A stretch of DNA of 64,000 nt from NCBI GenBank assembly GCA_027576995.1, contig JANBQC010000010.1:1-64000 (forward strand). The letters run 5' to 3'. Made by a program: the position numbers and the translations under genes. The notes below the pieces were generated by a model. That model saw only the letters and a program-made list of their open reading frames with translations, was not told the origin of the DNA and made no database searches. Of this stretch, positions 20,999-63,166 are shown piece after piece (the stretch's first letter is position 1; every line of letters begins with the position of its first letter). Source of the stretch: Dimargaris cristalligena. Its lineage: Eukaryota; Kickxellomycota; Dimargaritomycetes; Dimargaritales; Dimargaritaceae.

Positions 20999-21880
20999 AT
21001 GACCCCCTCCACTGAACTATCCCCGACCACGGTCCTCGGCTACCACCGCCTGATCGCTGAGGGTTACCAAGACTACGAGGCCCTCCCGCTTTTCAAACCG
21101 GATAACCCCCAATCCGGTATTTTCGGCGTATCCCATCCACTGTCGACCATGCTCGACACTTCTGCCGCCCAACTGGACCCGTCCCTGTCGCTGGACGTGA
21201 TCCTACACGCCGCTTGGGTGGTTCTGCTGGCCCGCTATAGTGAGACCCCGGCTGTAGTAGTGGGTACAATCCGAGCCGATCCAGCCGATGGCCCCCTCGA
21301 AAAGGCCGCCGGCCGAGTGGCCGCTCTGGTCCATCGCTACGAGCCCGACATGCCCGTATCGGCCTGGCTGGCCACTATTCGGGCCGCCCTGGATTCGGAT
21401 GAATCCCAGGTAGATTCGGCCCAGCCGGATCCCAGCATTGATAGGCCAGCCCAACACGCTCTGTTCGAGTCAGCCATCGTTACCCAACCTTTGGGCCCGG
21501 CTATGTGTAAATCGCAGTCACTTCTTGTGGAGGATGATGCCGACGCTCCTTCCATATATGGTCCGGTCGATCTCGTCCAAGAGTATTCCTGGGGCCAGGT
21601 GGCTGAAGCGCTGGCTCATCATCATCAAGTGACACTGTTGGTTTCCCTGAGAAAGGGTGACCCTGAGGGGACTTCCCCATACCTCCGATTACACTTTGAC
21701 GGCCGCACGGTGGCCACCCAGGCCGCCCAGCAATTGGCCATTCAGCTGGGTACTCTGATGGAGCACCTGATTCGGGTGTCGGCTGACCCGGCCGAAGAAG
21801 CTGTAACTCTGGCGGAGCTGCAGTGGCTCGCCCCTAACCAACGCGAGGCGATTATCCATAAATTAAGCCAATCGCCCGAC
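20999..21880 (+). other. NRPS N-terminal half condensation domain
   Basis: Residues 1-294 match only the C-terminal lobe of a C domain. LDVILHAAWVVLLARYS corresponds to the usual 'LLxAAWALLLxRYT' helix, VVVGTIRADP to the 'VxFGxxVSGR' strand, and ALFESAIVT to 'LFxTxxVFENYP'. The N-terminal lobe with HHxxxDG is absent and the strand motifs are eroded. It cannot catalyse condensation by itself. It may be a structural remnant preceding a starter A domain. Confidence 0.7.
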
Positions 21881-24800
21881 CCCACCGTTGCGCCATTTGT
21901 GCCAGTGGCCCACAAAGTAGCGGAGTTCGCCCGCTCCCACCCCACTCAGGCCGCCCAACTGTACCAGGGCAACGCCCAGTCCTTCGCCGAGCTCAACCAC
22001 TGGGCCAACGTGGTGGCCCATTGCCTCCGCACCCAACACAGCATTGGCCCGGAAGACCGGGTGGCCCTCTTCGTCGAAAAGTCCACAATAGTGGTGGTGG
22101 GCATGCTGGGTATCCTAAAGGCCGGGGCCGCTTTCATTCCTATCGATACCCAATTCCCAGCGGACCGGGTGGAGTATATTCTCCAAGACAGTGCGGCGCA
22201 GGTAGTGCTCACTACCCGCTTATCCGCACCGGCCTTGGATTCCCTCCATGCGGAGGGGTCTACTTTGGTGTTCATTGACGAGCTGCCCGATATTTCGCTA
22301 AGCTCAGAAACCGGCGAGCTCTACCCGGATCCTTCTGAAGAACCAGCCCCCGACCATTTGGCTTACATGATCTACACATCCGGCACCACGGGCCGCCCCA
22401 AGGGGGTTCTGGTTGAACACGCCGGGTTGGCTAGCGTGGTAACCGTGCCCGAGCGGCGCGACCACATCGAGCCGGGGGTCTGTGTTTTCCAGTCCTTCTC
22501 GATTGCGTTTGACGCATTCCTGTACGAGGCATTCGTCACCCTATGTAACGGAGGCACCCTGGTCCTCCCTGGCGAGGACCCGCTGGCCGACTTGGCTCAG
22601 GCCCATATTTTGACCGCTACCCCGTCTTTTTTGGCCATGGTGGACCCGGACCAATTCCCGCATCTTCGCCAGATTATCAGCGTGGGGGAAGCCTGTCCGC
22701 CTGGCCTCCGGGCCCGTTGGGTCGGTCGCTGCTTCATGGGCAACGGTTACGGGCCAACCGAAGCCACCGTCTTTACCCACTTCGATATTCTGGAGGAATC
22801 CAACCCCATCACCATTGGACGACCGGTTCGAGGCGTCACCTCTTACCTAGTAGACCACCAGCGCCAACTGGTTCCCCTGGGCGTGGTGGGGGAGCTGTTA
22901 ATCGGCGGGGTAGGTGTGGCACGGGGTTACAATAACCTGCCCGAACAAAGTGAGAGCAAATTTATCACCAACCCGTTTGGCCCCGGGCGGGTTTACTGCA
23001 CGGGCGATTTGGCACGCTGGCTACCCAACGGCCGCCTGGAATTCATTGGGCGAGTAGACCACCAGGTGAAACTTAACGGCTTCCGTATCGAGTTGGGCGA
23101 AATCGAAGCCCAGCTGGGTGGCTATCCGGGGGTTCAGCAGGCCGCGGTCATTGTGCAATCCGATCGCCTGGTCGGGTACTATAGCCCGGCCTCTATCGAG
23201 GTGGAGTCTATTAGAACCCACTTGAAAAAGACCCTACCCCGCTACATGGTGCCCACCTATCTGGTGCCCGTGGTGGTCTTTGCCCTAACCAGCAGTGCTA
23301 AGATTGATCGCCGCCGGTTACCGCCCGTACCCGAGCTCCAGGCTGCTGTCCCCGAAGAGGGCCCGGAGCCAGGTGCTAAGAGTAAATATAACCCCAAAAC
23401 ACCCGAGGAAGCCACCCTGCGCCAGGTGTGGGCCCAGGTCCTGCGCCGACCCATTCACCACATTAGCCCCACGGACCACTTCTTCCAGATTGGGGGTGAT
23501 TCTATTGTGGCTATTCTCGCCGTCGCGCAGTGTCGCCAGCATGGCTATAAACTCACTGTACCCCTTATCTTCGATCACCCAACTCTGGTGCGCATGGCCC
23601 GCCAGCTGGTGCCCCTGGCCTCGCTGGCTGAAATGGCTGTCGTAGCGTACCCCCAAGGGCCAGTGGAGGGGCCCATTGCCCTTACTCCTATCCAGCGCTG
23701 GTTCTTTAACTGGCCCGTTCAGCATCGGGACCATTTCAACCAGTCCTTTAACCTGTCCGTTCACCATGAGTTGGATCCCCAGCTCCTTTCCCATGCCCTG
23801 ACGCGGTTAGCCGAGCACCACGATATTCTCCGTTGTCGTTACCGTCAGGGGTCCGAGGGGTGGGAACAGTCGATTCCGCCATTGGCCGACGATCCGGACC
23901 AGTGGGTGCACTTCATCTCTGAGGACAATATCAATTCCGCCGGGGTAGTGACCTGCCTGCAGTCTCTCGCGACCGGCATCACCATCGATAACGGTCCCCT
24001 CTGGGCATTTGCCCTCCTGGCGCCATCCGAGCCGACGGACCATACCTGGGCGCATGTTACTGTGCACCACTTAGTGATTGACCTGGTGTCGTGGCGTATC
24101 CTAATTGAGGACCTTAATACGCTATTATCGGGCGGTAGTTTGCCGGAGAAGACCCTCTCTTTCCAACAATGGGCCTCCGCCCTTGGGGATCACGCTGGCC
24201 AGCTACGGGCCGATGAATGGCCTGAACAGCACTTCTCCCCCACCGACTACGTCCCATCCCCCCTTACGGGTGAACTTCATACCTCCGCCTACGAGCGCCG
24301 ATCCATTGCCTGCACCCTATCGACCCATGTCACTGGGCCTCTCACCGGTGCACTGACCCGTCAGTGGCGGGTTACCACGCGGGACATGGTGCTAGCTGCC
24401 TTTGCCCTGGCCTACTGCCAAGTCTTTCATGTTACCTCGCTCGCTCTCCATATGGAAGGCCATGGCCGTGAACCATGGTCCCCCGAGCTTGACATTACCC
24501 GGACGGTCGGTTGGTTCACCGCCGTCTACCCCTTGGTGATTGGGGCCGGCCCGGCTCCCAACTTGCCCGAGGTACTCGCAGCCACCAAGCGCGCTCTTCA
24601 GCGTATTCCCCAAAAGGGGTTTCCCTATAGCGTCCTGCAACACATGCCCCAGGTCGACCCTGAGGAAAAGAGGAATCTGGTGGCCAAAACCCCTGCCCAC
24701 GTCGATGTACTATTCAATTATTTCGGACGGTTCGATGGTCAGCAGAGTGACTCCACCTGGATCGATATTGACTGGGACGCCCAGCACGGTGAGCACGATT

Positions 24801-27800
24801 ACAAACCGGGCGAATTTATGACCCACAACTTAAACGCTATGTCGGTCGTCAGGAACGGTCAACTCCAGCTCATGGTTGACTACAACGGCCACTATTTCCC
24901 AGAGTCGGCTCTGGATGGTTTACTGACTGCATGGGAAAATCACTTGGAAACCCTGGTAGCCCTGTCCCACGATCCCACTCACGTCACTCCCACTTTGACT
25001 GGCCCCGATTTCCCCCTGTGGAACCCCGACGACGAGGAGTTGGCCTATACCCTAGAGGCCCTGGGCGAGCGGGGCCATTTGCCGTACGAGGTGACTGATA
25101 TATATCCAGCCACACCCGCCCAGGCTGAGATTCTAGTCGTTTCGCTTAAGGACCCCTCCACCTATCTGGTGCAGATTGGCTGCACGCTGGAAGGCTCCTT
25201 TGACGAAGCACTGTTCCGCGCTGCCTGGTCGGACATCAGCCAGCGCTACACTATCCTGCAGACAGTTTTCGTGGACTCGGCCAGTGCTCTGGGCCACGGC
25301 TTTGTACAGGTCCAGCTGAACAGGTCAACCACCGAATGGCTGCCTGCTATGGAGTGGTCTGCCGATGACTGGGCCCCAATGGAGGCCGACTACATTGTCA
25401 CGGATCGTGCCCGAGGTATGCGTGTGTTGACGGATCCACTGATTCGGATCCAGGTGGCTCAATTGGGGGCCGAGTCGCAGAGTACCCGGGTTATTTTTTC
25501 TATCCACCATTCCCTCTTTGATGGCTGGTCAATGTCCTTGGTTCTCCAAGAGTTGTTGGCTGTCTACCAACACGGTGTTGGGACTCGTACCAACCGGTCG
25601 GATTTCCAGGCCTACGTACAGTGCCTGGCCGGATTGGATACCAAGGCCATGGCCTCCTTCTGGCGTGCGTACATGGCGGACCTTCCCCCCTTGCGGCTGC
25701 CCACTCTCTTGGCACCCCAGCCCCCGGTGGACCAATTCCGCAAGTACGAGGCCCCGCTAAAGGTAGCTCACGCAGCCCTTGGCCAATTCGCCTCCCGCCA
25801 CGGTCTGACACCGGGTGCCCTATTGCGCGGGGCCTATGCCCTTGTGCTCTCCCAGCTTACCGGTGAACGTGACTTGATATTCGGGGCCACCATTGCCGGT
25901 CGTAACGTGGACTTGGACGGTATCACCACTTTGGTGGGACCGTGCCTCAATACCATTCCCGTTCGTATTCGCATTGACTCCGTGCCTTTGCTGGACTGGT
26001 TGCATAATATCCACGACGACCAACGGCGCACTCTGCCCCACGAGTTGGCCAATCTGATTGATATTGCCAAATGGGCCGGGATAACCGACGGCTCTCCTCT
26101 TTTCCGCACTATGTTGGTATTCGAAAACTACCCCCAGCCCAATGCGGACCCGGCCAGTCCGCTGCGAATCGTGGATAAAGTGGCCTATGAGGTGACTGAG
26201 TTCCCCATTTCCGCCATGGTCAGTGATGATGGGGATCAGTTCCGCTGCACGGTCTACTTCCACGGCACTCACTACAGCCTGGATGATGCGGCCTGGTTGG
26301 CGGACCTATTAAGCGGTGTGTTAAATCAATTTGTTCAGTCGACTTCCACGACCGTGGTGTCCGACGTGTCCCTTCTATTCCCTTTTGAAGCCACTGCCAA
26401 GTCTCCTTTGGAATCTGGTTCCAGTACGGAAGGCGATCTCACCCCACCCGTGCCCAGTTCTGCCAAGTCGGTCGAACTACCAGTAGGCTGGTGGATCAGT
26501 AGCCCTCTCAATGACCCTACTGAGGTTAATGAAACCAATCAGCGTTGGGCCATCCACCACCAGACCTGGATTCACTTGGCACAGATTGATCAAGTGGCTC
26601 TATCCGGAGGAGCGTCGGCGGCCACCACCGTCAATACTAAGAAATCGGGAGAACTGGTAACTTTTGTGCGCACCTCGGACCTGGAAAAGTGCCGCGGTGA
26701 ATTACTGAGCCAACTCACCCAGGCTTACCGTCCCGAACACGTTATTCTCTTGGACGATTTTGAGTCCTGGGCTCCTTGGGTGGTTGCTTCAACTACCGAA
26801 CGGGTCGGTAGTGATGTTCTGGGGGTGGTGGCCGAGGCTTACGTCCAGCTTCAATCCAAGGCCGACATCTTCCAGTCCGAAACGGAGCGCTGGCTAGCCT
26901 TGTGTTGGATGGTCAGTGGAGGAATGTCCACAGCCACGCGGAGCCCACCGCATCGTTCCAGCGACTACTTTACCCAGGGTGGCCAGGCCTTTAATCTTCT
27001 GGGGATTCGGTACGCCCTGGCTCGCCAGTTCGGCGTTTACCCCCCTTTGGTAGCTCTCTACCAGCACCGTATATTGGCCGACCTCGCCAACTACGTGGAT
27101 GACCTAGTCCCTACCAATGAAGCTGAGGTTCCGCTGCCGCTATCTGATGATTTTTCGGGTCCAGAGGGACCTCTATCGGTGGCTCAGCGCCACATCTGGC
27201 TCCAGAATGAACTGAGCCAACCCGTAGCCCAGTCGGTACAAGAATACCAAATTCCCTTGGACCAAATACCGGCCCTTGCGGACGTTGAAGCGATTGTAAG
27301 CAACTGGGTGGCCTGTCACCCTGCTCTGCGCACCACGTTCCACTGGTCCGGATCGGGGGTACTTCAGCGAGTGCACTCAAGTGGACCGGCCCACATAGAG
27401 CCCACGGCTGCTGTGTCACCCGACTCGGAAGACATTGGGGAATTGCCCAATACGCCGGCCCCTCTCAATCCCAGGCAGCTACCCCTATTCTCGGTCCAGC
27501 TTCAGCAGAAATCGGATACCGCCGGCTGCGTACTAATTCGAATCCACGAATTGGTTGGGGATAACCGTGAGCGCCACCAGCTTATTACCCATCTGCGCCA
27601 GATGTTGGTTACCAAAACTGAACCGGAGCAACTCGATGGGCCAGATACTCTTTTCGGTGAAAAGACGTACTTGGAACGGTCCCATGCCGAATACCAGTTC
27701 CTGAACTCGGTGGAGGGAACCGCCATGGTCGATGAATGGCGCATTTATCTGGCCGAGGCCCCTCGCCAGCTTGATCTCCCGGCAGACCACCCTCGAACTA

Positions 27801-36800: not shown

Positions 36801-39800
36801 CCCCGGCGATATCGCTACCCGCCCCTGCCGGCACCCTGTCTGCCCCTCAAGGGCAAAAGACCCTGCCCAGGGTTCACTCAGTTACCTTCACCTGCCCTTC
36901 GACCACTATCCAGGCCTTCGCCCAGGCCCACAGCATTACCACAGCCTCCTTGCTACGTGCCCTGTGGGCCCTGTTGCTCAGTCAGTACCTGAATGAACGT
37001 TCCGACGTGGTCTTTGGCGTGGTGGTATCCGGCCGCAACACCCCCATCGCGGGTATTGAGCGCATGGTGGGAATGTGTATCAACACGGTTCCTTTCCGAG
37101 CCCAACTGAACCCTGAAGCTGCCGTACTTGACTGGCTGCATCAGCTACACTCCATCTCCGGCCGGATGATCCCCTTTGAGCACTGTCGCCTGACAGATAT
37201 TAAGCAGTGGGCCCTTTCCAATGGCCCAGCGAGCAGCGGGGATATGTTCCAGTCCATTATTGTATATGAAAACTACCCAACGTCCAACATCGAATTGCCT
37301 GAGCCGGAAATCAGCTACCAACGCGGCCAAGGCCTCGAATTCACCGAGTATCCCCTATCGGGCTGCTTCATTGAAATTGGCGGCCATCTCCAGCTCAAGA
37401 TCGTCTACAGCTCTCACCTGTATGACCCTATTTACGTGACCCATATGGGAGACTACTTGAACCACTGCCTTTCCCGTATCATCCAAAGTGCCGCTGAACT
37501 TCGAATGGAGGACCTGTTCGCCCTCTCTCCCGCCGAGACCGAACTAGTCCTCCGCACCTGGGCAGTGGGCCCGGTCGATGAGTCGCCCCACCTCGACCGG
37601 AATCTCCACCAACTATATCTAGACCGGATGGACCAGGACCCGACCGCCATCGCCCTGGAATGGGAGGACCAACAGTGGTCCTACGCCGAGGTTTACGAAA
37701 AGGCGACCGGGGTGGCCCAGTGGCTCCTGGCCCGCGGTCAACAACCGAGCACCCCGGTGGCCCTTATCATCGACCGGTCCCCTGCCATGATTTTTGGGTT
37801 GCTTGGTACTCTATTGGCGGGTGGAACGTACGTACCTATGGAAGCCACCAACGTCCCCGATCGCCTTCGCCACATGCTTCACGAATTAGACGACCCTGCC
37901 ATTCTAACCACCCGCTCCCGAGCCCCACTGGTGTTTGACGAGCTCGGGGTGGACAAAGAACGGGTGGGATTCATTGACGAACTGGTGGAAAACCCCGTAG
38001 AGGGGTTGGCCGCAGGGAAGGATCGGCTGTGCGTCACGGTGACCCAGGATGACCTGGCCTACATTATCTTCACCTCCGGTACGACAGGCAAGCCTAAGGG
38101 AGTGCCCATCTCGCACCGGGGAATCGTTAATTTTGTGAGCCACAGCCCACACAACTTTGGCCTTAAACCGGGTCACCGGGTGATGCAGTTCCTTAATATT
38201 GCCTTTGACGGCTGCTTGTCTGAGGTCCTCAATACCCTTATTGGAGGGGCCACTTTGGTTCTCCGAGACGACGACTACACGGAGACGGCCAAGCGGGTCA
38301 ACACCCTACTCTGCACCCCGTCAGCCCTCAGTATCCTCGACCCGATGGACTATCCCAATCTCCGATTGATCAGCACGGCAGGCGAGGCACTCCCTTATTC
38401 TCTGGCCCAGCGCTGGGCAGCCCACTGTTCCCTGTACAATACCTACGGTCCCTCGGAGGCTAGTATCGGCACGCATATTGCCCATGTCAAGCCTGGCCAA
38501 CCCATTAGTATCGGTGTCCCCATTGCCAATAGTCAGTGCTACGTACTGGATGATAACCTGCGACTTGTACCAGCGGGGGTGGTTGGTGAAATGTGCATCG
38601 CCGGTCGGGGAGTTAGTCCCGGCTACTACAAACGACCCGACCTTAGTGCAAAGGCATTTGTCGATAACCCGTACGGCCCCGGTCGCCTGTACCTTACCGG
38701 TGACCTGGTGCGCTGGCTTCCCAGTGGAGAAGTACAGTACCTCTCCCGTAAGGACTCACAAATTAAGCTCCGAGGGTTCCGCATCGAACTCGGTGAATTG
38801 GAAAGCACTGCCGAACTGCTCCCCGAAGTGCAGCACAGCACGGCAGTGGTTAAAGACGGCCAGATCGTACTGTACGTGACCCCGACCCAGGTTGATGCCG
38901 ACGCAATCCGGGAACTTATTCGGACTAAACTACCGGCGTACATGGTCCCCGCCTATTTGATTACCCTGGACGAGATGCCCCTCACCAAAAATGGTAAGAT
39001 TGACCGGGCCCAATTGACCGCCCGAGTTCTCCCCACCTCGGGATCGGGGGGTAGTGCCCTGTATCAGTCCGACCCCGCGATTCTGGAGCTCCTGGTGGCC
39101 GCCCTGGGTCAGACCCTCAACCAGGACCCGACCGCCATCAACGTCAACTCCTCCTTTTTTGAACTGGGCGGCGACTCCATTTCGGCTATCCAGTTTGTGG
39201 CCAAGGGGAAGCGAGCGGGCCTGGATTTAAGTGTGGCACAGATCTTCAAGACACCTATTGTGGCCCAGCTGGCCAGTCTGGTGCAGCTAAGTGATCCCCG
39301 CAAGACCCGACCCTTCCTAGGCCTGCTCGCATCCGAGGAAATGGCCCACGCCCAGGGGGAGGTGCCCTTGACCCCCATCCAAACCTGGTTCCTGCAACAG
39401 CCGTTCCACCACTGGGACCAGTTCAACATGACCTTCCTGATTGAATGTCGCGAGGCTCTCACCCTGTCGGATGTTTACCGAACAGTCCAATCCCTGGTGG
39501 TCCACCACGACATGCTGCGGGTTCGTTTGGAACGGGGCTCTACCCCCCGTGAGGCCCGCCAGATTGTTCCCGCGTTCGACCCGGACCGGCCCTTGGACTC
39601 CTACGTGTACTTGGAGGAGGTTCATCTGGCCGATGCTAGCGAACTCTCCTTCTGGTTGGAAAAGATCCAGACCCGACTGTCTCTGTCTGACGGCCCTACC
39701 CTGGCCTGTGCCTTAATTCACCTGGATGGCCGCCCGCTATTGTTCACCACCATTCACCACTTCGCCCTGGACCTGGTGTCGTGGCGCATTTTATTGGAGG

Positions 39801-42800
39801 ACATGGAAACCCTCCTGACTGGCGGGCAATTGCCTGAGCCCACCATGCCCTTCCGCCAGTGGGCCCACCTTCTGAAAGCCTACGCCCAGACGCTATCTGA
39901 CGATGCTTGGCCCCAATACGGTCCCGTCGATCCCCTCCCGCTAGACTACCCCGAGTCGACCGAGGGCCACCACCAGCTGGCTTCGTGCCTGTCCCTGGAG
40001 CGCGCTCTCGGGACTGACCTGACCGATAAACTATTCTGCCAGCTCAGTGCCACCGCCGGGGCCACTCCCCAGGAGTTCATGCTGGCCTCCCTGATTGGTG
40101 CCCTACAGGCCGAACTGGCTATGCGTTCCGTCGAGATTGAGCTCGAGAGCCACGGTCGCCACCCCTGGGATAATGATATTGACATTTCCCGCACCGTGGG
40201 CTGGTTTACCGTCACCTACCCGTTGAGCTTCCATCCCTCTGCACCTGCCGGTGGACTCTCGGAACGCTTGGCCCGGCTTCGCCATGTTAAACATCGCCTG
40301 CGCCGAGTGCCCAGCAGTGGGTTCCCCTACAGCCTACTCAAGTACCTTAAGGACCATGATCCGGATACCGTTAATCCGGCCCTTCTCAAGCCCTTCCGCA
40401 AACCGGACGTCCTCTTTAACTACCTCGGGCGGTTCGAACACTTGGAAGCTGAAAATTCCTTCTGGCGCTCGTTTGACCACATACTGGGCGAGGACAGCTT
40501 CAACGTCAGTAAAACGGAGGATTGGAATCGGGTCCTGGATGCCGTCTGTCGGGTGGACACCGACCGTGGCCTAGTGCTGTGTCTCACTTACAACACTGAA
40601 ATGCACCGCCCGGACACGGCCGAACGTATCGTCGATCGCTGGCAGGCCGAATTGGGCTGTCTGATCAACGAAGCCCTCGCTAGTGCCACCCCAACCTACG
40701 CCCCCACCGATTACCCCCTTCTAAAGGGCCTTACCGAGACCGACCTGGACACCCTGGTGACGCTGGACCTTCCCTCCGCCAAATTTGACATTCGGCAAGT
40801 CGAAAACATCTACCCGTGTGCCCCCCTCCAGGAAGGCCTTTTATTCGCCATGCTCAAGGACCCTAGCGCCTACGTGATTCAGACCGCCTATACCATCCGC
40901 GGCCACTTGGACTCAGAGCGATTCAAGCGGGCCTGGGACCATGTGGGCCAAATCAACAGCATTCTCCGGACCCGGTTCTGCCTGGGTAGCCGGGCAGCAG
41001 GCGGTAAGAACCTCCAGGTGGTACTGAAGGAGTTCCACGCCGATTGGCGCGAATTCGACCTCTGTGGCCGGGACCCCGCCTCCTTCGAGGCCGAACTAGT
41101 CGAACAGGATCGCCGATTTGGGTTCTCTCCCGAGCTGCCCCTAGTCCGCTTCGCCCTCATCCGGCTCGAGGAGAGTGGGTGCCACCACCGGTTCATTCTG
41201 ACCATCCACCATGCCTTGGCGGACGGTTGGTCCAATGCCATTATGATCAACCAGCTCCTGCAGGCCTATATGGACCAGTGCCCCGTGGCCCGGATCAACT
41301 ACGACGAATTTATGGAGGTGCTTCTATCGCAGGACCCCCAGGAAGCCCGGGATCATTGGCGCGGCGAGCTCCATGGCCTATCGTCCCCTACCATTCTGAC
41401 GGGCCCCAAACCATGGGCCCCATCGGGGACCCGGAAGCTGGACCCTGTCGGAGGGGAGGGCGGCCAGGCCGGCCACCCCCGTCCCAAAACCAGTCGGTTT
41501 GTCCATGCCACCATTCAGGGCCTAGCCCGCATGAACAAACTGGCTCAGACCCAAGGCATCACCTTTGCCACCTTACTGCGAGCCGCCTGGGGTCTGACTC
41601 TCCACCACTACACCGGTCTGGACGATGTGGTGTTTGGTGTGATTGTATCGGGACGTAATGTCCCTATTGACAACATTGATCACTTGGTGGGTCTGTGTAT
41701 TAACAACATTCCCTTCCGGGTCCAAATCGACCAGAAGCAGCCCGTGGCCCAGTGGCTGGGAGACCTCCACCAGCGAGTGGCCGCAAGTGTGCGTTATGAA
41801 CACTGCCGCCTCACCGACATTACCAAATGGAGCGATCTGGCTCTCGACTCGGTGCTGTTTAACACGGCCCTCGTCTACGAAAACTACCCCATGGCTGAAT
41901 CCTCGGTCGACACCCCAATTTCCATCGACGGTGAATACGGGGTGGAGCACACGGAATACGACCTGTCCTTGTGCGTATTCAGCCATGATGACGCCCTCGA
42001 GATCAAATTGGAATACCAGCCCACCCTGTTCGATCCGACCTTTGCCCAGCAGCTTGCCCATCACTTCGCGGCGTTAATCACCCGGATTCATCAGGTGTCC
42101 CCCGCCTGTCCCTTGGGTGAAATTCCCCTATTATCCGAAGTCGAAAGCAGTCGGCTGCTGGCCCCCGCGCCTTTCACCATTAACCGGCTGTTCCCTTCGA
42201 ATGACTCCGACGAAGTAGCTGAGTGCTTTACCGCCCACGTCCTCTTCCGGAGCCAGGTTGAGCGCACTCCCGACGCCCCGGCGCTAGAGGGCCCCATGGC
42301 CTACGGTTCGCTGACCTACCGCCAACTGGACTGGCTGTCTAACGCACTGGCCAACCAAATCGGGACCCTCTTATCTATCGAAGACACGGTCCCGGCCGAG
42401 CCGGTGATCGCCATTTTATCGGACTGTCACCACGAAATCATCGTCAGCCAACTGGCCATTTGGAAGGCCGGCGGAGCCTTCGTGGTACTAGACCCCACCT
42501 ACCCACTCGAACGCAAGCGGTTCATCCTGGAGGATACCCAATGCACTTTGGTGCTGGGTGGATCCTTTGACCAGGTCCTAGCTATTGATCCGGTCCTAGA
42601 ACACATCGCTCTGGACGAGTTCCTTAACGTGAATGCTGTTCCCACAGCTGATTGTGACCTTACCTTCTCTATGGAATCGAACACCGACGAGAATGAACGT
42701 CGTTACCGTCTGGCGTGGGTGGTCTACACTTCGGGTTCCACAGGCCAGCCCAAGGGTGTCCTCGTGGAGCACGGTGGTGCGGTCAACTGCTTCCTGGCTA

Positions 42801-45340
42801 TCAACCAGGTTATTAAGCAGGACTCCACATCGGTGGTGTGTCCCCTCCTCAAGACCACGTTTGACGCCTCCATTGCCGAAATGTGGGTTCCTCTAACCAC
42901 TGGTGGAAAGGTGATTACGGCCCCACTCGATATGCTAGACGCGGTCGCCCAAATGACAGTACTGACCTGTACTCCATCGATGTTGGCCACCCTAGACCCC
43001 GACCAGTGCCCACAGGTCCAAACTGTGGTGGTGGGTGGTGAGAATATCAGTCCCCAATTGGTTAACCGTTGGGCCATCCGGGCCCGACTCATCAACTGCT
43101 ACGGCCCTTCCGAGGTATCCGTAAACGCGTTTGCCACTGTACTGCACGCCAACACCGAAATCACCCTGGGCCATCCCATCGCCGGAGTCACCGGGTATGT
43201 CCTGGACCACTACCAGAGACCCGCGCCCCCCGGGGTAGTGGGTGAGCTCTACCTGGGTGGCGCCGGAGTAGCCCGCGGCTACTTAAACCGACCCGATCTT
43301 TCGGCCACCCAATTTATCGACAATCCATTTGGCCCCGGTCGTTTGTATCGAAGCGGGGACGCGGTACGCCGCTTGCCCTCTGGCCAAGTTCAATTTATTG
43401 GTCGCCTGGATAACCAAGTCAAAGTCCACGGCTTCCGTGTCGAGCTGGGTGAAATTGAGAATACACTAGTTAAATTCCCCGGAGTGGAACGTTCCTGCGT
43501 GGTGGTTCAGGATGGCCGACTGGTAGCCTACGTGATTCCTGAGGGCATTGACACCACAGCCCTGTTTCGTTTCGCCCAGGGCCAACTGCCCAGTCACATG
43601 GTTCCAGCCCGGGCGGTGCCGCTCACCCACTTCCCGACTAACCGGGTAGGAAAAATCGATACAGGTGCGCTGCCCCGGGTGACATTTATGGACCTTAACC
43701 TGGATGGCACTACCGCGGCCGATGGCCAGACGGACCGGCCCCACGTTGGAGACCTTCCCCAAGAGGTGGCGCAACTGGTGACCCTGGTGGCCGAGGTACT
43801 CGAATTAACCCCCGACCGGGTGTCGCCCCATGCCACATTCTTCCAACTAGGTGGTGATTCGCTCACAGCTATCCAACTGGCCAGCAAGTGCAAGCAACTG
43901 GGACTGGAACTAAAACTCGTAGACATTGATCGCTTTACCGACTTGTACAGTCTGGCCCAGGCCGCCCAGCCTCTTCATGAGCCACTGCCCGCCGAACAGG
44001 GCCAAGTGATGGGAGCGGTTCCTCTAACCCCGATCCAACTCAATTTCTTCGATATGAATCTAACCAACCCCCACAAGTTCCGCCTCTCGTTCCTCCTGCA
44101 GAGCGCCGTAGTCCACCCCTATACTCGCTGGCAACAGGTATTGCTTAGCCTGCTCTGCCACCATGATCTGCTGCGCTGTCAGTACACGACGGCCGGGGGC
44201 CATATTGGCCCAGGGGCAGAGGAACTGTCCCTAGCCGAAAAGCTGTTCTACCACCGGGTGGCGGACGAGCGGGCCATGAAGGCCATCCTTCCGACCCTGT
44301 TGGACGGAATGCACTACGAACAGGGACCCCTGTTCCAGGCCGCGGTGTTTGACACGACTGACCAACAGTACTTCTTCTTTACCGCCCACCACCTAGTTGT
44401 TGACCTGGTGTCCCTCCGCATCCTCATTGAGGATATTGAATCCCTAATGCGCGGGTTTGCTCTGCCACCCAAGACCCTTTCGTTCCAGCAGTGGGCCGGG
44501 CTCTTGCCCCAGATTGCCGCGGACCTTGACCCCACCCACTGGCCGGCCACTCCCTTCCCCGACCCCATTACCCCCGACTTCCCTGATTCCGTCGCCTCCC
44601 GGACGGTGGTGTCGCAAACCGGTGTAGGGGCGCGCTTATCCAGCGCCGATACCCGGGCCCTATTCGGCCACAGCAGTTCGGCCCTGGACGCCCCACCCAT
44701 GCATTTTATGCTTTCGGCGCTGGTTCGGGCCTTCACCACTTGTTACGACCGCACCGGCCTGGCCCTTCACTTCCAGTCCCACGGCCGCCGGGCCCACGTG
44801 CCGGGCTACGACGTGGCCCGCACCGTCGGTTGGTTTACCACGATTTACCCCGTGATTTTGACCCGTGGATCCGACGGCGTGGAATCGGAGAATGACGCGC
44901 GCGGTACCCTTCGCCACGTCCAGAACACTATGGACCAAATCCCGCACGACGGGTTTATCTACCCCCTACTCCGTCATCTCCGCTCGGCGGACAGTAGTGG
45001 GGATGGTGACACCACAGATCCGACCGTTTGGGATCGTTTCAAGTCGACCCCTCAGTACGCCTTCAATTATCTCGGTCAAGTAGACGCGTCGGGGGTGAAA
45101 TCGACCAGTAAGCTGTTCTCCAGTCGAGCTGACATTACTAGCCAGATCAGTCAGCTCGGTTTAGAAAACAGTTGGTCCTACTTAATTGACTTTATCTGCT
45201 TCCACGACCAGGACCAACTGGTGCTGAATGTCGGTTATAGTAGTGAAGTGTTCAGTGGTAGCAACATGACTACTCTGGCGGAGTCCTGGAAACAGCACTT
45301 GGAGGAGCTGATCCATCTTGCCGATGAAGTAGTGTCTTGA
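20999..45340 (+). CDS. Giant intronless non-ribosomal peptide synthetase with an epimerase in every loading module
   Basis: One uninterrupted frame of 8,113 residues. The ATG at 20999 is the first in frame; only a TTG lies farther upstream, at 20972. The motif-based architecture is half-C, A1-T1-E1, C2-(A remnant)-T*, C3*-A2-T2-E2, C4-A3-T3-E3, C5-A4-T4-E4, C6-A5-T5-E5. All five A domains keep YTSG(S/T)TG or FTSGTTG and GYGPTE/AYGPSE type cores plus the late Lys. Five T domains keep GGDS (Ser835, 3036, 4546, 6060, 7621). E domains show HHxxxDLVSxxxL, (E)xHGR, RTVGWFT and NYLGRF/NYFGRF/NFLGQ motifs. C2, C4, C5 and C6 keep HHxxxDG. There is no TE, reductase or cyclizing C after the last E. Neighbours are housekeeping genes, so no obvious cluster exists. 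The product is inferred to be a pentapeptide, mostly D-configured. The lack of introns contrasts with most neighbours. Confidence 0.95.
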   Translation: MTPSTELSPTTVLGYHRLIAEGYQDYEALPLFKPDNPQSGIFGVSHPLSTMLDTSAAQLDPSLSLDVILHAAWVVLLARYSETPAVVVGTIRADPADGPLEKAAGRVAALVHRYEPDMPVSAWLATIRAALDSDESQVDSAQPDPSIDRPAQHALFESAIVTQPLGPAMCKSQSLLVEDDADAPSIYGPVDLVQEYSWGQVAEALAHHHQVTLLVSLRKGDPEGTSPYLRLHFDGRTVATQAAQQLAIQLGTLMEHLIRVSADPAEEAVTLAELQWLAPNQREAIIHKLSQSPDPTVAPFVPVAHKVAEFARSHPTQAAQLYQGNAQSFAELNHWANVVAHCLRTQHSIGPEDRVALFVEKSTIVVVGMLGILKAGAAFIPIDTQFPADRVEYILQDSAAQVVLTTRLSAPALDSLHAEGSTLVFIDELPDISLSSETGELYPDPSEEPAPDHLAYMIYTSGTTGRPKGVLVEHAGLASVVTVPERRDHIEPGVCVFQSFSIAFDAFLYEAFVTLCNGGTLVLPGEDPLADLAQAHILTATPSFLAMVDPDQFPHLRQIISVGEACPPGLRARWVGRCFMGNGYGPTEATVFTHFDILEESNPITIGRPVRGVTSYLVDHQRQLVPLGVVGELLIGGVGVARGYNNLPEQSESKFITNPFGPGRVYCTGDLARWLPNGRLEFIGRVDHQVKLNGFRIELGEIEAQLGGYPGVQQAAVIVQSDRLVGYYSPASIEVESIRTHLKKTLPRYMVPTYLVPVVVFALTSSAKIDRRRLPPVPELQAAVPEEGPEPGAKSKYNPKTPEEATLRQVWAQVLRRPIHHISPTDHFFQIGGDSIVAILAVAQCRQHGYKLTVPLIFDHPTLVRMARQLVPLASLAEMAVVAYPQGPVEGPIALTPIQRWFFNWPVQHRDHFNQSFNLSVHHELDPQLLSHALTRLAEHHDILRCRYRQGSEGWEQSIPPLADDPDQWVHFISEDNINSAGVVTCLQSLATGITIDNGPLWAFALLAPSEPTDHTWAHVTVHHLVIDLVSWRILIEDLNTLLSGGSLPEKTLSFQQWASALGDHAGQLRADEWPEQHFSPTDYVPSPLTGELHTSAYERRSIACTLSTHVTGPLTGALTRQWRVTTRDMVLAAFALAYCQVFHVTSLALHMEGHGREPWSPELDITRTVGWFTAVYPLVIGAGPAPNLPEVLAATKRALQRIPQKGFPYSVLQHMPQVDPEEKRNLVAKTPAHVDVLFNYFGRFDGQQSDSTWIDIDWDAQHGEHDYKPGEFMTHNLNAMSVVRNGQLQLMVDYNGHYFPESALDGLLTAWENHLETLVALSHDPTHVTPTLTGPDFPLWNPDDEELAYTLEALGERGHLPYEVTDIYPATPAQAEILVVSLKDPSTYLVQIGCTLEGSFDEALFRAAWSDISQRYTILQTVFVDSASALGHGFVQVQLNRSTTEWLPAMEWSADDWAPMEADYIVTDRARGMRVLTDPLIRIQVAQLGAESQSTRVIFSIHHSLFDGWSMSLVLQELLAVYQHGVGTRTNRSDFQAYVQCLAGLDTKAMASFWRAYMADLPPLRLPTLLAPQPPVDQFRKYEAPLKVAHAALGQFASRHGLTPGALLRGAYALVLSQLTGERDLIFGATIAGRNVDLDGITTLVGPCLNTIPVRIRIDSVPLLDWLHNIHDDQRRTLPHELANLIDIAKWAGITDGSPLFRTMLVFENYPQPNADPASPLRIVDKVAYEVTEFPISAMVSDDGDQFRCTVYFHGTHYSLDDAAWLADLLSGVLNQFVQSTSTTVVSDVSLLFPFEATAKSPLESGSSTEGDLTPPVPSSAKSVELPVGWWISSPLNDPTEVNETNQRWAIHHQTWIHLAQIDQVALSGGASAATTVNTKKSGELVTFVRTSDLEKCRGELLSQLTQAYRPEHVILLDDFESWAPWVVASTTERVGSDVLGVVAEAYVQLQSKADIFQSETERWLALCWMVSGGMSTATRSPPHRSSDYFTQGGQAFNLLGIRYALARQFGVYPPLVALYQHRILADLANYVDDLVPTNEAEVPLPLSDDFSGPEGPLSVAQRHIWLQNELSQPVAQSVQEYQIPLDQIPALADVEAIVSNWVACHPALRTTFHWSGSGVLQRVHSSGPAHIEPTAAVSPDSEDIGELPNTPAPLNPRQLPLFSVQLQQKSDTAGCVLIRIHELVGDNRERHQLITHLRQMLVTKTEPEQLDGPDTLFGEKTYLERSHAEYQFLNSVEGTAMVDEWRIYLAEAPRQLDLPADHPRTTLAPFPAGRLVQDLSKEYSDALQTWRKRKDDVPLIDLALASVAGYLARLTGKSDLLVGLAPSPDTKYQLLPLRITSDHSKDFGHWVGQAHSQREWATSHGQIPFDCLFERLGEHPDLYTPPLVQVTVGCTTDSNPTTWSTDRPLSMITRDLARPHARATTRVDLAFGFHEKADGTLAVSLGYNGALFETTTVDRLIKNLVHFSLAALAPPPVPLSQLPLLESGERDLVLSNFSVNPSAEVIPHDAQRGLVHLIMSHIDDYPANVALETKGELVYYSELAGLTEQLARGLYASGVRAGDRVGVFVTRHHRIVLLTLAIWSLGAVYVPIDAQLPRQRQEYMFSTTTCRLVVNATDSTEFPTAVSYRDLYHSGEEDIPPSPYPVADDAPAYIIFTSGTTGLPKGVEVPHGGLCNLMMLVDGNLCDRPDTRVLQTMAPGFDGFLHVTFMTLCHGGTLVVAGADLLTDLEGVDAAVLTPSILSTLEPDLYPRLRALATAGEPLSRHLADIWAPRLPLYNYYGPTEATICSHLTCVPVTGPITIGRPIANTSCYILDDHLQLVPIGATGEIFLGGPNLALGYLGRPDLTEARFIPNPFGLGRLYRSGDLGRWTSSGEVECLGRRDEQVKLRGYRIELAEIQAALLRDPRLTDAVVLVHRQQIVVFVLANETPHPSTETIQADLVEFLPHYMVPSAILWVDEIPRTINGKTDDRQLRDQFDVSHHLHKTPLALSNNQLSARSPQEEALVSAIAQVLALERSAVIPAATFFRLGGDSISAIKLSSKCRQGGWQLAVPAILSGQSLDRLAAQMTPITYPKEDAAAAIGKVPAGTCFPLTPIQTWFFNRNFRNVNHFNQTFVFELLKDLSGPKLASALHRVINQHEMLRAQFINEGDLGWSQQYLAPEQVPALVVSEGQGPLSDLASFVVMVQQSIDIYTGALVGAGLYSILSDSDQPPTVLLILTIHHLVIDLVSWSVVMDDLVQGLGDSPIDSPTCSFPDWALAWQQWSTEQSDVDHSWPDSTLSECPFIQLDQLEQNTEGQSEMHQFTVPTELSRILLQPAADTPTDLRTLDFIVAALSQALQRWAGPNTFIIDMESHGRRPWRTDLDLARTVGWFTTVLPLVCEKIPDQFPGHYLRQAKNGLRKVSDHELETAWQYHRHRAISQGQYTPGLIALNFLGQTIDQGTLTAQGQAPWRPRHDFLSHVAELGADERRAHIIDVAVLVDEGRLKVDLQYCPPVLLTESARTLATAFEQSLSDLAHFHLDHPSVPYWTPAQFPLVKAPLIDWPVLEAKLEERWGAIVGDVADIYPCTPLQAGLLAVTARLPSEYTIQLGCTIEGVPSAEAIQKAFELVAARHPILRTRFLLDGFGNYTEPIQVVAHHPHFPYKLADSWLDLNVQDEADFVAQDRAQGFNLDQPLLRLCVVRLHSRAFRCVVSSHHAILDGWSNGMLLAELKLGLAGTAVPLEPTVSYRSFVQYISEQDPDHNARFWRSYLGMDPVSTTLRLPRHQPPTPTNNAEHIITLTDQLPKLNQQAKQFGVTVSSVLRAAWALLLHQYTGQNDVIFGTTVSGRSIPVDHIENMMGFCINTIPFRCSLSQTASLPQLLRSVGDLSAQLSEQEHCSLTDIQKWVSSAGTKVDLFNTIIVYENYPHSDLNQPDDLIQIRDQVAYEYTEYPLSACFFNEDTELQVRLTWKTDDVDEDYVRLLGANLVRVFKYLYEALGDSPPSLALGHIDLLDPSQADQLDRFGYPIADHVRPVPVTNLIQGWVNETPDTMALECIGHPPITYAQLGVQVSNLITRLVETEPSRQAVVAILVERVPAAILAMLAVLGAGFSYVCIDPSNPLERLQYVLQDCACQIVLALGPTTSDLQVAITEGGRALIDVTQVLLTDTVDSEATRTPWTTPALSDLAYVVYTSGSTGQPKGVQIEHRGLTNLVQCAPHNLGVKSGERVLQTLSLAFDGCVNDIYSCLCNGGTLVLNPHVLAPFDNIDVGAVTPSILAAWDPATVGTIRRIVAAAEPLKPSLVQQWASKCTLFNAYGPSECTVATHIGPVHTDRPITIGTPIANSKCYVLDPQSRRVPIGATGELHVGGVGVARGYLNRPDLTEAAFLANPFVPDDRMYRTGDLVRWLADGTLEYVARTGDFLKIRGFRIELAEIELALLAHPEVVAGSVIVSGDRIYGFVAPQTVDVDVVRATASRRLPHYMYPSRIFALNSLPMTTNNKVDKQALKSHLAIALSESTEREVTAPQSELQGKIRDALAQTLFQEPTAIGIHDSFFQLGGDSISAIRYSALLRDAGIVATVAQIFDHPTVYSISDVVQVQDTERPAITQEPVSGSFPLAPVQSWYFDLNLQAVQRFNQSFMLAIRDPIPSDTIKEAVATLITHHDVLRARYRCNETRWEQAIDPYSDSPDTPYFHFDVVEDELTEAEVRDRCCALTAQFDLQGGPLAAAGVYRTTDHPQLLFLSAHHLTVDLVSWRILFEDLAALLQPSPKPLPPKTVSYADWTRHLVEHAHLVPPSPGISSDPLYCDVPSPLTTNTIDSRHTTTHFLSGPATQSLFQTGRDQNVLRAQPQEILLAAFAAAYFTVAPPDSLTVDLENHGRHPFDSLDISRTVGWFTAIYPVPFRRANGPDSDNHTALLGTALRASKNGIRTTGHHGLAPGLRKYLVDPGTDSTPGRVSFNYLGRFDQLDSGKGPFISRPELVPPECDLNGQEIWPYLMEASCRHVDDQLELALVTSPHFHSPEFVQRLLESWSSHLVTYTSAEAATLLHHALTPTDFPLLGCTPESLAGLLSEIEAARDISPAEIADLMPTSHLQEGLTISTLRDPSAYVIQIRFDIEGSPDVTRYQAAWASLGQRYQVLRTRLHTSDHLPGKSVVQVITRQFTAPWTIEEWSTIDPNSEEAQVQESAYLSADRQRGFTLDGPLIRFALFHMGSERARCIMTVHHSLLDGWSNSIILSESLALYHGVDLPPPVQYSAFIQYLEGQDVEACQRFWQEYLDQVKPTPAISLPAPAGTLSAPQGQKTLPRVHSVTFTCPSTTIQAFAQAHSITTASLLRALWALLLSQYLNERSDVVFGVVVSGRNTPIAGIERMVGMCINTVPFRAQLNPEAAVLDWLHQLHSISGRMIPFEHCRLTDIKQWALSNGPASSGDMFQSIIVYENYPTSNIELPEPEISYQRGQGLEFTEYPLSGCFIEIGGHLQLKIVYSSHLYDPIYVTHMGDYLNHCLSRIIQSAAELRMEDLFALSPAETELVLRTWAVGPVDESPHLDRNLHQLYLDRMDQDPTAIALEWEDQQWSYAEVYEKATGVAQWLLARGQQPSTPVALIIDRSPAMIFGLLGTLLAGGTYVPMEATNVPDRLRHMLHELDDPAILTTRSRAPLVFDELGVDKERVGFIDELVENPVEGLAAGKDRLCVTVTQDDLAYIIFTSGTTGKPKGVPISHRGIVNFVSHSPHNFGLKPGHRVMQFLNIAFDGCLSEVLNTLIGGATLVLRDDDYTETAKRVNTLLCTPSALSILDPMDYPNLRLISTAGEALPYSLAQRWAAHCSLYNTYGPSEASIGTHIAHVKPGQPISIGVPIANSQCYVLDDNLRLVPAGVVGEMCIAGRGVSPGYYKRPDLSAKAFVDNPYGPGRLYLTGDLVRWLPSGEVQYLSRKDSQIKLRGFRIELGELESTAELLPEVQHSTAVVKDGQIVLYVTPTQVDADAIRELIRTKLPAYMVPAYLITLDEMPLTKNGKIDRAQLTARVLPTSGSGGSALYQSDPAILELLVAALGQTLNQDPTAINVNSSFFELGGDSISAIQFVAKGKRAGLDLSVAQIFKTPIVAQLASLVQLSDPRKTRPFLGLLASEEMAHAQGEVPLTPIQTWFLQQPFHHWDQFNMTFLIECREALTLSDVYRTVQSLVVHHDMLRVRLERGSTPREARQIVPAFDPDRPLDSYVYLEEVHLADASELSFWLEKIQTRLSLSDGPTLACALIHLDGRPLLFTTIHHFALDLVSWRILLEDMETLLTGGQLPEPTMPFRQWAHLLKAYAQTLSDDAWPQYGPVDPLPLDYPESTEGHHQLASCLSLERALGTDLTDKLFCQLSATAGATPQEFMLASLIGALQAELAMRSVEIELESHGRHPWDNDIDISRTVGWFTVTYPLSFHPSAPAGGLSERLARLRHVKHRLRRVPSSGFPYSLLKYLKDHDPDTVNPALLKPFRKPDVLFNYLGRFEHLEAENSFWRSFDHILGEDSFNVSKTEDWNRVLDAVCRVDTDRGLVLCLTYNTEMHRPDTAERIVDRWQAELGCLINEALASATPTYAPTDYPLLKGLTETDLDTLVTLDLPSAKFDIRQVENIYPCAPLQEGLLFAMLKDPSAYVIQTAYTIRGHLDSERFKRAWDHVGQINSILRTRFCLGSRAAGGKNLQVVLKEFHADWREFDLCGRDPASFEAELVEQDRRFGFSPELPLVRFALIRLEESGCHHRFILTIHHALADGWSNAIMINQLLQAYMDQCPVARINYDEFMEVLLSQDPQEARDHWRGELHGLSSPTILTGPKPWAPSGTRKLDPVGGEGGQAGHPRPKTSRFVHATIQGLARMNKLAQTQGITFATLLRAAWGLTLHHYTGLDDVVFGVIVSGRNVPIDNIDHLVGLCINNIPFRVQIDQKQPVAQWLGDLHQRVAASVRYEHCRLTDITKWSDLALDSVLFNTALVYENYPMAESSVDTPISIDGEYGVEHTEYDLSLCVFSHDDALEIKLEYQPTLFDPTFAQQLAHHFAALITRIHQVSPACPLGEIPLLSEVESSRLLAPAPFTINRLFPSNDSDEVAECFTAHVLFRSQVERTPDAPALEGPMAYGSLTYRQLDWLSNALANQIGTLLSIEDTVPAEPVIAILSDCHHEIIVSQLAIWKAGGAFVVLDPTYPLERKRFILEDTQCTLVLGGSFDQVLAIDPVLEHIALDEFLNVNAVPTADCDLTFSMESNTDENERRYRLAWVVYTSGSTGQPKGVLVEHGGAVNCFLAINQVIKQDSTSVVCPLLKTTFDASIAEMWVPLTTGGKVITAPLDMLDAVAQMTVLTCTPSMLATLDPDQCPQVQTVVVGGENISPQLVNRWAIRARLINCYGPSEVSVNAFATVLHANTEITLGHPIAGVTGYVLDHYQRPAPPGVVGELYLGGAGVARGYLNRPDLSATQFIDNPFGPGRLYRSGDAVRRLPSGQVQFIGRLDNQVKVHGFRVELGEIENTLVKFPGVERSCVVVQDGRLVAYVIPEGIDTTALFRFAQGQLPSHMVPARAVPLTHFPTNRVGKIDTGALPRVTFMDLNLDGTTAADGQTDRPHVGDLPQEVAQLVTLVAEVLELTPDRVSPHATFFQLGGDSLTAIQLASKCKQLGLELKLVDIDRFTDLYSLAQAAQPLHEPLPAEQGQVMGAVPLTPIQLNFFDMNLTNPHKFRLSFLLQSAVVHPYTRWQQVLLSLLCHHDLLRCQYTTAGGHIGPGAEELSLAEKLFYHRVADERAMKAILPTLLDGMHYEQGPLFQAAVFDTTDQQYFFFTAHHLVVDLVSLRILIEDIESLMRGFALPPKTLSFQQWAGLLPQIAADLDPTHWPATPFPDPITPDFPDSVASRTVVSQTGVGARLSSADTRALFGHSSSALDAPPMHFMLSALVRAFTTCYDRTGLALHFQSHGRRAHVPGYDVARTVGWFTTIYPVILTRGSDGVESENDARGTLRHVQNTMDQIPHDGFIYPLLRHLRSADSSGDGDTTDPTVWDRFKSTPQYAFNYLGQVDASGVKSTSKLFSSRADITSQISQLGLENSWSYLIDFICFHDQDQLVLNVGYSSEVFSGSNMTTLAESWKQHLEELIHLADEVVS
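21890..24970 (+). other. NRPS module 1: A1-T1-E1 (starter)
   Basis: Residues about 298-1324. A1 has MIYTSGTTGRPKG and GNGYGPTEATVF. The hand-aligned ten-residue specificity code, by analogy with the GrsA Phe pocket, is D-A-Y-T-I-V-G-V-F-K, a hydrophobic pocket of unknown substrate. T1 carries IGGDSI with Ser835. E1 has HHLVIDLVSWRIL, EGHGRE with catalytic Glu1153, RTVGWFT and FNYFGRFD, so it should be active and give a D residue at position 1. Confidence 0.8.
25085..27110 (+). other. NRPS dead module: C2, A remnant, T with Ser replaced by Ala
   Basis: C2 (residues about 1363-1796) is intact, with IYPATPAQ and HHSLFDGWS. The following A domain is almost gone: the 200 residues between C2 and T* lack every A core motif, and only the late part (GELVTFVRTSDLEKCRGELL, then VILLDDFESW) recalls the C-terminal A subdomain. 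T* reads FTQGGQAFNLLGIRY, where GGDS is expected. Ala1997 replaces the serine that takes phosphopantetheine, so this carrier cannot be loaded. The reading frame is nevertheless intact. Confidence 0.8.
27160..31600 (+). other. NRPS module 2: degenerate C3, then A2-T2-E2
   Basis: Residues about 2054-3534. C3 starts with PLSVAQRHIWLQNEL, the style of an LCL domain, unlike the other C domains, and its active site reads HELVGDN at 2183-2189 in place of HHxxxDG. A2 has FTSGTTGLPKG and NYYGPTEATIC; the code by hand is D-G-H-V-A-A-Y-I-C-K. Its A10 reads NGKTDD. T2 is normal (Ser3036). E2 keeps HHLVIDLVSW, ESHGR and RTVGWFT, with NFLGQ in place of NYLGR. Confidence 0.75.
31660..36130 (+). other. NRPS module 3: C4-A3-T3-E3
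   Basis: Residues about 3554-5044. C4 has IYPCTPLQ and HHAILDGWSN. A3 has VYTSGSTGQPKG and NAYGPSECTVA; the code by hand is D-G-N-A-V-A-A-V-A-K, with NNKVDK as the late Lys motif. T3 has LGGDSI (Ser4546). E3 has HHLTVDLVSWRIL, ENHGRHP, RTVGWFT and FNYLGRFD, all intact. Confidence 0.8.
36180..40720 (+). other. NRPS module 4: C5-A4-T4-E4
   Basis: Residues about 5061-6574. C5 has LMPTSHLQEG (a variant of IYPxTPxQ) and HHSLLDGWSN. A4 has FTSGTTGKPKG and NTYGPSEASIG; the code by hand is D-G-S-L-S-A-T-I-G-K. T4 has LGGDSI (Ser6060). E4 has HHFALDLVSWRIL, ESHGRHPW, RTVGWFT and FNYLGRFE. Confidence 0.8.
40775..45337 (+). other. NRPS module 5: C6-A5-T5-E5, terminal, E5 probably inactive
   Basis: Residues about 6593-8113. 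C6 has IYPCAPLQ and HHALADGWSN. A5 has VYTSGSTGQPKG and NCYGPSEVSVN; the code by hand is D-A-A-T-V-G-C-V-N-K. T5 has LGGDSL (Ser7621). E5 has HHLVVDLVSLRIL (Leu for the usual Trp), FQSHGRR with Gln7926 in the place of the catalytic Glu, and an intact RTVGWFT. The protein ends about 20 residues after the E fold, with no release domain. Confidence 0.8.
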
Positions 45341-63030: not shown

Positions 63031-63166
63031 GTGCCGTAAAGTTCCCTCCCTCTATTCGCCCAGTTTTTATTTGGCCCGAATTCCTTCGTCGCTTGGGTGC
63101 CTCCCCTATACAGTTCTCTATCTCTCACACTCTCTCCCCTCCCACCCCCACCCATCCGACCCACAA

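Follow-up and report, generated by a model that had tools for sequence, protein, structure and literature searches.

The window (the 64,000-nucleotide stretch of Dimargaris cristalligena DNA analysed here) contains a gene for an 8,113-residue nonribosomal peptide synthetase (NRPS) that is best explained, with a probability that we put at roughly 60%, as a one-gene, five-step enzyme of fungal lineage. As such it would make a pentapeptide with a D-D-D-D-L pattern, and its terminal domain (E5*), related to epimerization (E) domains, would be non-epimerizing and have another role. The layout is rare but shared; the original prediction of a working epimerase in each of the five loading modules holds for E1-E4 and probably fails for E5.

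Frame and domain organization

The gene was predicted to be a single frame free of introns, and it is open, without an internal stop across 8,113 codons, from an ATG at 20999 to the stop codon at 45338-45340 (the reading frame being already open from ~20810). Pfam searches on the two halves of the protein gave 2 + 3 AMP-binding, 2 + 3 PP-binding and 5 + 6 Condensation stretches, and the domain order is half-C, A1-T1-E1, C2, decayed module, A2-T2-E2, C4, A3-T3-E3, C5, A4-T4-E4, C6, A5-T5-E5*. The features are listed below, with core-code positions of the A domains placed by what we take to be the PheA numbering.

20999..45340, + strand: whole single-frame NRPS, 8,113 aa
20999..21787, + strand: N-terminal half-C, C-terminal lobe only, without HHxxxD (hhalign; no Pfam match)
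21860..23356, + strand: A1, core code DAYTIVGVFK
23414..23605, + strand: T1 (PF00550)
23666..24970, + strand: E1, catalytic His and Glu present
25094..26386, + strand: C2, DCL-like, HHSLFDGWS
26336..27259, + strand: decayed module remnant, A domain gone, carrier-like stretch without Ser (no Pfam match)
27260..28468, + strand: decayed C domain, IHELVGD, second His of HHxxxD replaced (PF00668, 81.4 bits)
28490..29953, + strand: A2, core code DGHVAAYICK
30017..30205, + strand: T2 (PF00550)
30278..31564, + strand: E2, catalytic His and Glu present
31694..32893, + strand: C4, DCL-like, HHAILDGWS
33032..34501, + strand: A3, core code DGNAVAAVAK
34547..34738, + strand: T3 (PF00550)
34790..36082, + strand: E3, catalytic His and Glu present
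36209..37543, + strand: C5, DCL-like, HHSLLDGWS
37556..39040, + strand: A4, core code DGSLSATIGK
39089..39280, + strand: T4 (PF00550)
39353..40675, + strand: E4, catalytic His and Glu present
40802..42157, + strand: C6, DCL-like, HHALADGWS
42197..43705, + strand: A5, core code DAATVGCVNK
43772..43963, + strand: T5 (PF00550)
44012..45325, + strand: E5*, terminal E-derived domain, HHLVVDLVS, HHxxxD kept

The half-C and the dead module between C2 and A2, both named in the original prediction, proved to be real. An hhalign comparison of nine family members with the C-domain profile gave 97.5% for the half-C, over columns 201-427 of 428 (the second half of the profile), versus 39.0% with the E profile. 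In the dead module, Ser is present at the carrier column in none of 10 family members (the alignment being uncertain in that stretch), and the decayed C domain has its second His of HHxxxD replaced in all 10, with the first His kept in 10/10 and the Asp in 6/10. At the other end of the protein, the frame stops a few residues past E5*, so no thioesterase or reductase domain lies behind it.

Identity of the E and C domains

TIGR01720, a marker for the C-terminal part of E domains, matched E1-E5 at 67.1, 27.6, 37.2, 66.9 and 63.6 bits, all below its curated cut-off of 74.2 bits (the E-values for E1-E4 range from 2.3e-6 to 1.6e-18), and matched none of the five C domains, the decayed one included. 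A tree was built from 241 domains, 101 of them fungal and 140 sampled from 794 bacterial ones (FastTree with midpoint rooting, as for the other trees). All five E domains share one clade there, at a support of 1.0, with every one of the 40 bacterial E domains sampled; the same clade holds 46 Dimargaritales E domains, one protein being counted twice (as C8 and P0007). By the tree, and in keeping with the family-model matches below cut-off, all five are E-type domains, and their identification as ordinary C domains is rejected. The claim that each of the five A-T pairs is followed by an E domain thus stands as a matter of domain type, HMMs having classed none of them as an ordinary C domain.

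E1-E4 all possess HHxxxD together with the catalytic Glu ahead of the HGR motif. Features of E2 speak against the proposed model: a low marker score, Phe for Tyr in the NY motif, and the loosest dN/dS of the slots. By sequence, the nearest solved structures include the E domains of TycA, TycB and GrsA (2xhg, 6ta8 and 5isw), from which E5 differs in lacking the catalytic Glu.

A clade with a support of 0.926 unites the intact C domains with all 40 of the bacterial after-E C domains sampled, and also contains seven other bacterial C domains and five of Mortierella. In a second tree, the sister group of the fungal after-E C domains (support 0.998) is a clade with a support of 0.884 that comprises 49 of 49 sampled bacterial after-E and three start C domains. 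C2, C4, C5 and C6 thus resemble DCL domains both in their position after an E domain and in their grouping with after-E C domains. One after-E C copy of paralog C15 and two of paralog C205 sit in the Dimargaritales clade.

A recent transfer from bacteria is rejected for the E domains: 55 fungal ones (45 from Dimargaritales, six from two chytrids and four from the protein P0123) separate, at a support of 0.998, from a sample of 90 out of 558 bacterial E domains. E domains of this family cluster with the ones in P0132 (Geranomyces), P0184 (Irineochytrium) and P0123, apart from bacterial E domains, with the grouping among the non-Dimargaritales fungi itself unsupported (0.049). The after-E C domains show the same split between fungi and bacteria. 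The two chytrid proteins (from Geranomyces variabilis and Irineochytrium annulatum) are also giant NRPSs, with three E domains each, on the fungal side of the tree.

Related proteins and the NRPS expansion

The architecture was not recognized from a characterized fungal pathway, but a reading of it as unparalleled is not supported. IWQ60_004348 of Tieghemiomyces parasiticus (P0002, 7,870 aa) has the same order, with five A-T-E units, the dead module and a Gln in the terminal E domain, and P0123 (7,762 aa), which groups with fungal E domains, likewise carries five A-T-E units in one protein. P0123 differs from the window enzyme in that its first E is incomplete (four of the five E domains passed the length filter), a C domain follows each E and is also the last domain, and its E domains form their own subclade. 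An E domain follows every A-T in six of 235 proteins, and of these six P0002 and P0123 have five modules; the 235 were gathered by similarity to the window enzyme and are no census. The layout is therefore rare and not unique. P0049, an NRPS of Mortierella alpina, is also giant and also from an early-diverging fungus, but had no detectable E domain, and its C domains lie in other clades.

The Tieghemiomyces protein is 52% identical to the window enzyme across residues 300-1900; for the terminal domain the figure is 57%. Identity of the A domains is 42-61%, with 38 of 50 code letters in common; agreement at the variable code positions is 29/40 (7, 7, 5, 5 and 5 of 8 for modules 1-5), leaving 11/40 that differ, and P0002 is likewise uncharacterized. 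In every position clade the window domain pairs with that of P0002, apart from the Dimargaris, Dispira and Tieghemiomyces paralogs, so that a window type and a paralog type of NRPS appear to predate these genera.

Nor is the gene a lone oddity of its genome. The assembly (27.1 Mb, 779 contigs) holds at least 79 C-domain family matches on 23 contigs, and the window gene lies on one of 15 of these with NRPS open frames of at least 3,900 aa. The expansion was in fact already known, from the parts of Ahrendt et al. 2018 (PMC6784888) that report 27 NRPS genes in D. cristalligena, several with modular synteny, and those of Tabima et al. 2020 (PMC7466969) that report 21 NRPS and seven NRPS-like genes. 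No description of the E-rich layout or of the terminal domain was found in main-text parts of these two papers.

Six whole paralogs are single frames of 7,462-7,960 aa, and two more (C90 and C205) stay open in one frame as far as the stretch examined reaches. The terminal E* is present in all eight, and the half-C and dead module in the six whole ones. Unlike the window enzyme, all eight lack an E domain in module 3, and where the window enzyme has Gln in place of the terminal Glu they carry Leu, Ile, Val or Asn. E3 is also absent from P0003 and P0046. Despite its absence, the C5 domain of these proteins lies in the same clade as that of the window enzyme, which suggests that E3 was lost in the paralogs, P0003 and P0046 and that the all-E layout of the window gene is the more ancestral, the place of E3 in the E tree being poorly supported. 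The C5 domain that follows the missing E3 in the eight paralogs reads HHALLDAWS instead of HHxxxDG and is still in the DCL-like clade. Paralogs C8 and C15 also lack E1, their first A-T passing directly to a C domain.

Among five paralogs (10 pairs), mean code identity in modules 1-4 is 44-58% at 65-74% identity, and in module 5 it is 83% at 81% identity. These patterns would fit a product that has been conserved in the case of the window gene and products that have diversified within the expansion. The A5 code is near-constant in the D. cristalligena paralogs (DVSC[IT]TWCGK in 6/8 copies), while modules 1-4 vary.

Paralog C8 matches the GenBank protein P0007 of D. cristalligena, with 7,317 identical residues among the 7,319 aligned, which places the source in that species or in a strain nearly identical to it. 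Two stretches of the open genomic frame are missing from the P0007 model, C8 residues 2846-2930, with carrier T2, and 5248-5309, within A4; both were probably falsely called as introns. On the 13 kb contig C684, carrier matches lie in long frames on opposite strands (1,569 and 2,399 aa).

The terminal domain has lost its glutamate and kept its histidine

E5* has the descent and fold of an E domain: it lies in the E clade, and the best 13 Foldseek and best 11 VIA entries are E-domain proteins. The AlphaFold models of E5* and of the C333 domain, whose mean pLDDT values are 84.3 and 88.7 respectively, both show the E fold. The absence of the fungal TqaA CT structure from the 50 structure matches listed for the terminal models carries no weight. 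The catalytic residues, however, do not bear out the prediction of an active epimerase in module 5, since the catalytic Glu is replaced by Gln at residue 7926 (codon CAG at 44774-44776) and the Trp of HHxxxDxxSW by Leu 7806. In canonical E domains the His/Glu pair is the acid-base catalyst, according to passages of PMC8807600. On these grounds E5 is probably not an epimerase.

The loss is shared by most terminal E domains of the family. The E domains surveyed were preselected either by HGR and NY strings or with a custom E profile and a length filter, so that those without these features were possibly missed. The Glu is kept in 34/34 internal Dimargaritales E domains versus 1/11 distinct terminal ones (1/12 if P0007, the duplicate of the C8 copy, is included), and the Trp in 34/34 versus 0/11. 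Gln occupies the Glu position in the Tieghemiomyces counterpart as in E5*. The sole terminal domain that keeps the Glu is P0151 of D. verticillata; the loss is thus not universal, and at least two independent losses are likely. In other proteins the Glu is present in 464/465 internal, 3/3 last and 93/94 terminal E domains, as collected with a custom E profile and a length filter by which divergent domains were possibly missed, so that terminal position alone does not explain its loss. P0003 of Dispira simplex, which speaks against a retained role, ends at T5 with no E-type domain behind it, unless its gene model is truncated.

HHxxxD, in contrast to the Glu, is kept in 11/11 distinct terminal domains. 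More broadly, 20 of the 32 columns that are at least 90% identical in both the 34 internal Dimargaritales and the 558 bacterial E domains, HHxxxD and HGR among them, are kept in all 11. Since the second His of the decayed C domain is replaced in all 10 family members aligned, an unused catalytic His would seem not to survive in these proteins; the retention of the first His and, in part, of the Asp in that same domain means that motif survival is no clean measure of use.

Nor is the terminal domain decaying. Its dN/dS of 0.135 is close to that of the intact E4 (0.138) and equal to that of A5 (0.135); E2 is the loosest slot at 0.23, and the slots other than the terminal, E4 and E2 span 0.088-0.165, with T4 the tightest (0.088). 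These are Nei-Gojobori medians over 21 pairs of seven D. cristalligena paralogs (the window gene excluded), with dS under 1.5 in 18/21 pairs for the terminal domain. Taken together, the terminal domain has probably lost epimerization and kept a selected, His-dependent role.

Surroundings of the gene

The window shows part of the surroundings of the gene, a view that short contigs mostly prevented according to parts of the first description of the expansion. Of 48 flanking frames (at least 110 aa) listed in the window, 20 were scanned with Pfam. Matches above cut-off correspond to a histidine phosphatase, a PCI-domain protein, a WAPL-like protein, a mitochondrial carrier, a NUBPL-type ATPase and a Zn2Cys6 regulator; those below it to LINES-like, TPR and C2H2 zinc-finger pieces, and 11 of the 20 gave no match. 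Flanking features with coordinates are:

2444-4048: neighbour, long single frame
11855-15244: neighbour, long single frame
46027-47160, + strand: open frame of 377 codons shortly downstream of the NRPS gene (no Pfam match)
63032-63508: Zn2Cys6 regulator (Pfam)

None of the 20 scanned frames is a drug or peptide transporter, tailoring enzyme or thioesterase, and so no gene cluster is evident, with introns and the remaining 28 frames leaving room for one. A genome-wide thioesterase search gave two short PF00975 matches, on contigs C50 and C30.

Proposed product and the role of the terminal domain

In the proposed mechanism, A1 would load a first residue that is not N-acylated, the C domain at the N terminus being only a half domain. 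Residues 1-4 would each be epimerized on their own carriers by E1-E4, and the DCL-like C domain that follows would accept each D donor, with C2 serving T2 and the decayed carrier skipped. The original prediction of D residues at positions 1-4 is upheld to this extent, that the catalytic His and Glu of E1-E4 are intact. The fifth residue would remain L, giving a pentapeptide with the D-D-D-D-L pattern. At the last carrier E5* would not epimerize, and would have a His-dependent or scaffolding role, most simply chain release, given that no thioesterase or reductase domain follows it.

We know of no E-derived domain that cyclizes or hydrolyzes a chain. Searches of the open-access literature at title and abstract level returned nothing on E-derived release, terminal E domains or E-rich NRPSs of early-diverging fungi, and nothing on point for E-domain catalytic residues. 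A precedent among C domains is described in parts of PMC11546977, in which the terminal C-type domains of fungal NRPSs cyclize the final chain (CT) or hydrolyze it (IvoA). E5* resembles a CT domain in being the last domain, of the C superfamily and with HxxxDxxS (HHLVVDLVS). In passages of PMC10212144 and PMC11546977, a C-superfamily end domain replaces the thioesterase, including cases that combine E with CT-DCL domains such as HC-toxin synthetase; the after-E C domains described here may belong to that CT-DCL class, and the last domain of the window enzyme differs from CT domains in descending from E. We advance only tentatively the more specific proposal that a terminal epimerase turned into a chain-release domain, which kept HHxxxD, dropped the Glu in at least two lineages and would hydrolyze or macrocyclize the D-D-D-D-L pentapeptide.

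It is also possible, and we hold this with similar reserve, that the terminal E* has no catalytic function and acts as a cap or docking platform, the peptide being released in trans by a separate enzyme. The X domains of glycopeptide synthetases would be the analogy, being inactive C relatives that recruit P450s (in parts of PMC8949500 and PMC11546977), and the loss of both Glu and Trp fits such a role, as do the two thioesterase matches on other contigs, which could act in trans. A platform, however, would have no need of the second His of HHxxxD, and the motif is invariant in 11/11 terminal domains, while the decayed C domain has lost that residue in 10/10 family members, which disfavours this explanation. 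We consider it improbable that E5 still epimerizes by way of another acid/base residue, to yield an all-D pentapeptide. Its E fold and tree position, and the Glu retained by P0151 in the same slot, would agree with this, but the near-universal presence of the Glu in E domains of other proteins argues against it, as does the solved TycA construct 9bfg, which has Ala at the Glu column; the Trp is lost too, and other E columns are also lost in most terminal domains.

The two remaining explanations concern the gene as a whole, and we regard both as very unlikely. Synthetases for epipolythiodioxopiperazines (ETPs) are two- to three-module enzymes. The window enzyme has an E domain after every one of its five loading modules, and no ETP accessory gene occurs among the 20 flanking frames scanned; these features stand against an ETP-type synthetase, which is suggested by the A-domain tree of Ahrendt et al. 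for D. cristalligena, where the expansion's A domains are closest to ETP synthetases (in the part of PMC6784888 concerned). That the gene is silent or a relic would accord with condensation stretches with internal stops elsewhere in the genome (C39 and C731), possibly broken copies, but is at odds with the 8,113 stop-free codons, with the protein of the same domain order and similar codes in another genus, and with purifying selection among the paralogs, a set that does not include the window gene. Our preferred reading remains a D-D-D-D-L synthetase with a non-epimerizing terminal domain.

Implications

In the Dimargaritales literature that we found, many NRPS genes are named and no peptide product. 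The gene described here would tie D-rich peptides of these mycoparasitic fungi to a genomic locus. If the chain-release proposal is true, E5* would represent a release domain that arose from an E domain, convergently with the CT domains of Dikarya, which derive from C. Whether an epimerase fold has been put to use in another step can be tested directly on this enzyme, for which E1-E4 in the same protein serve as built-in controls.
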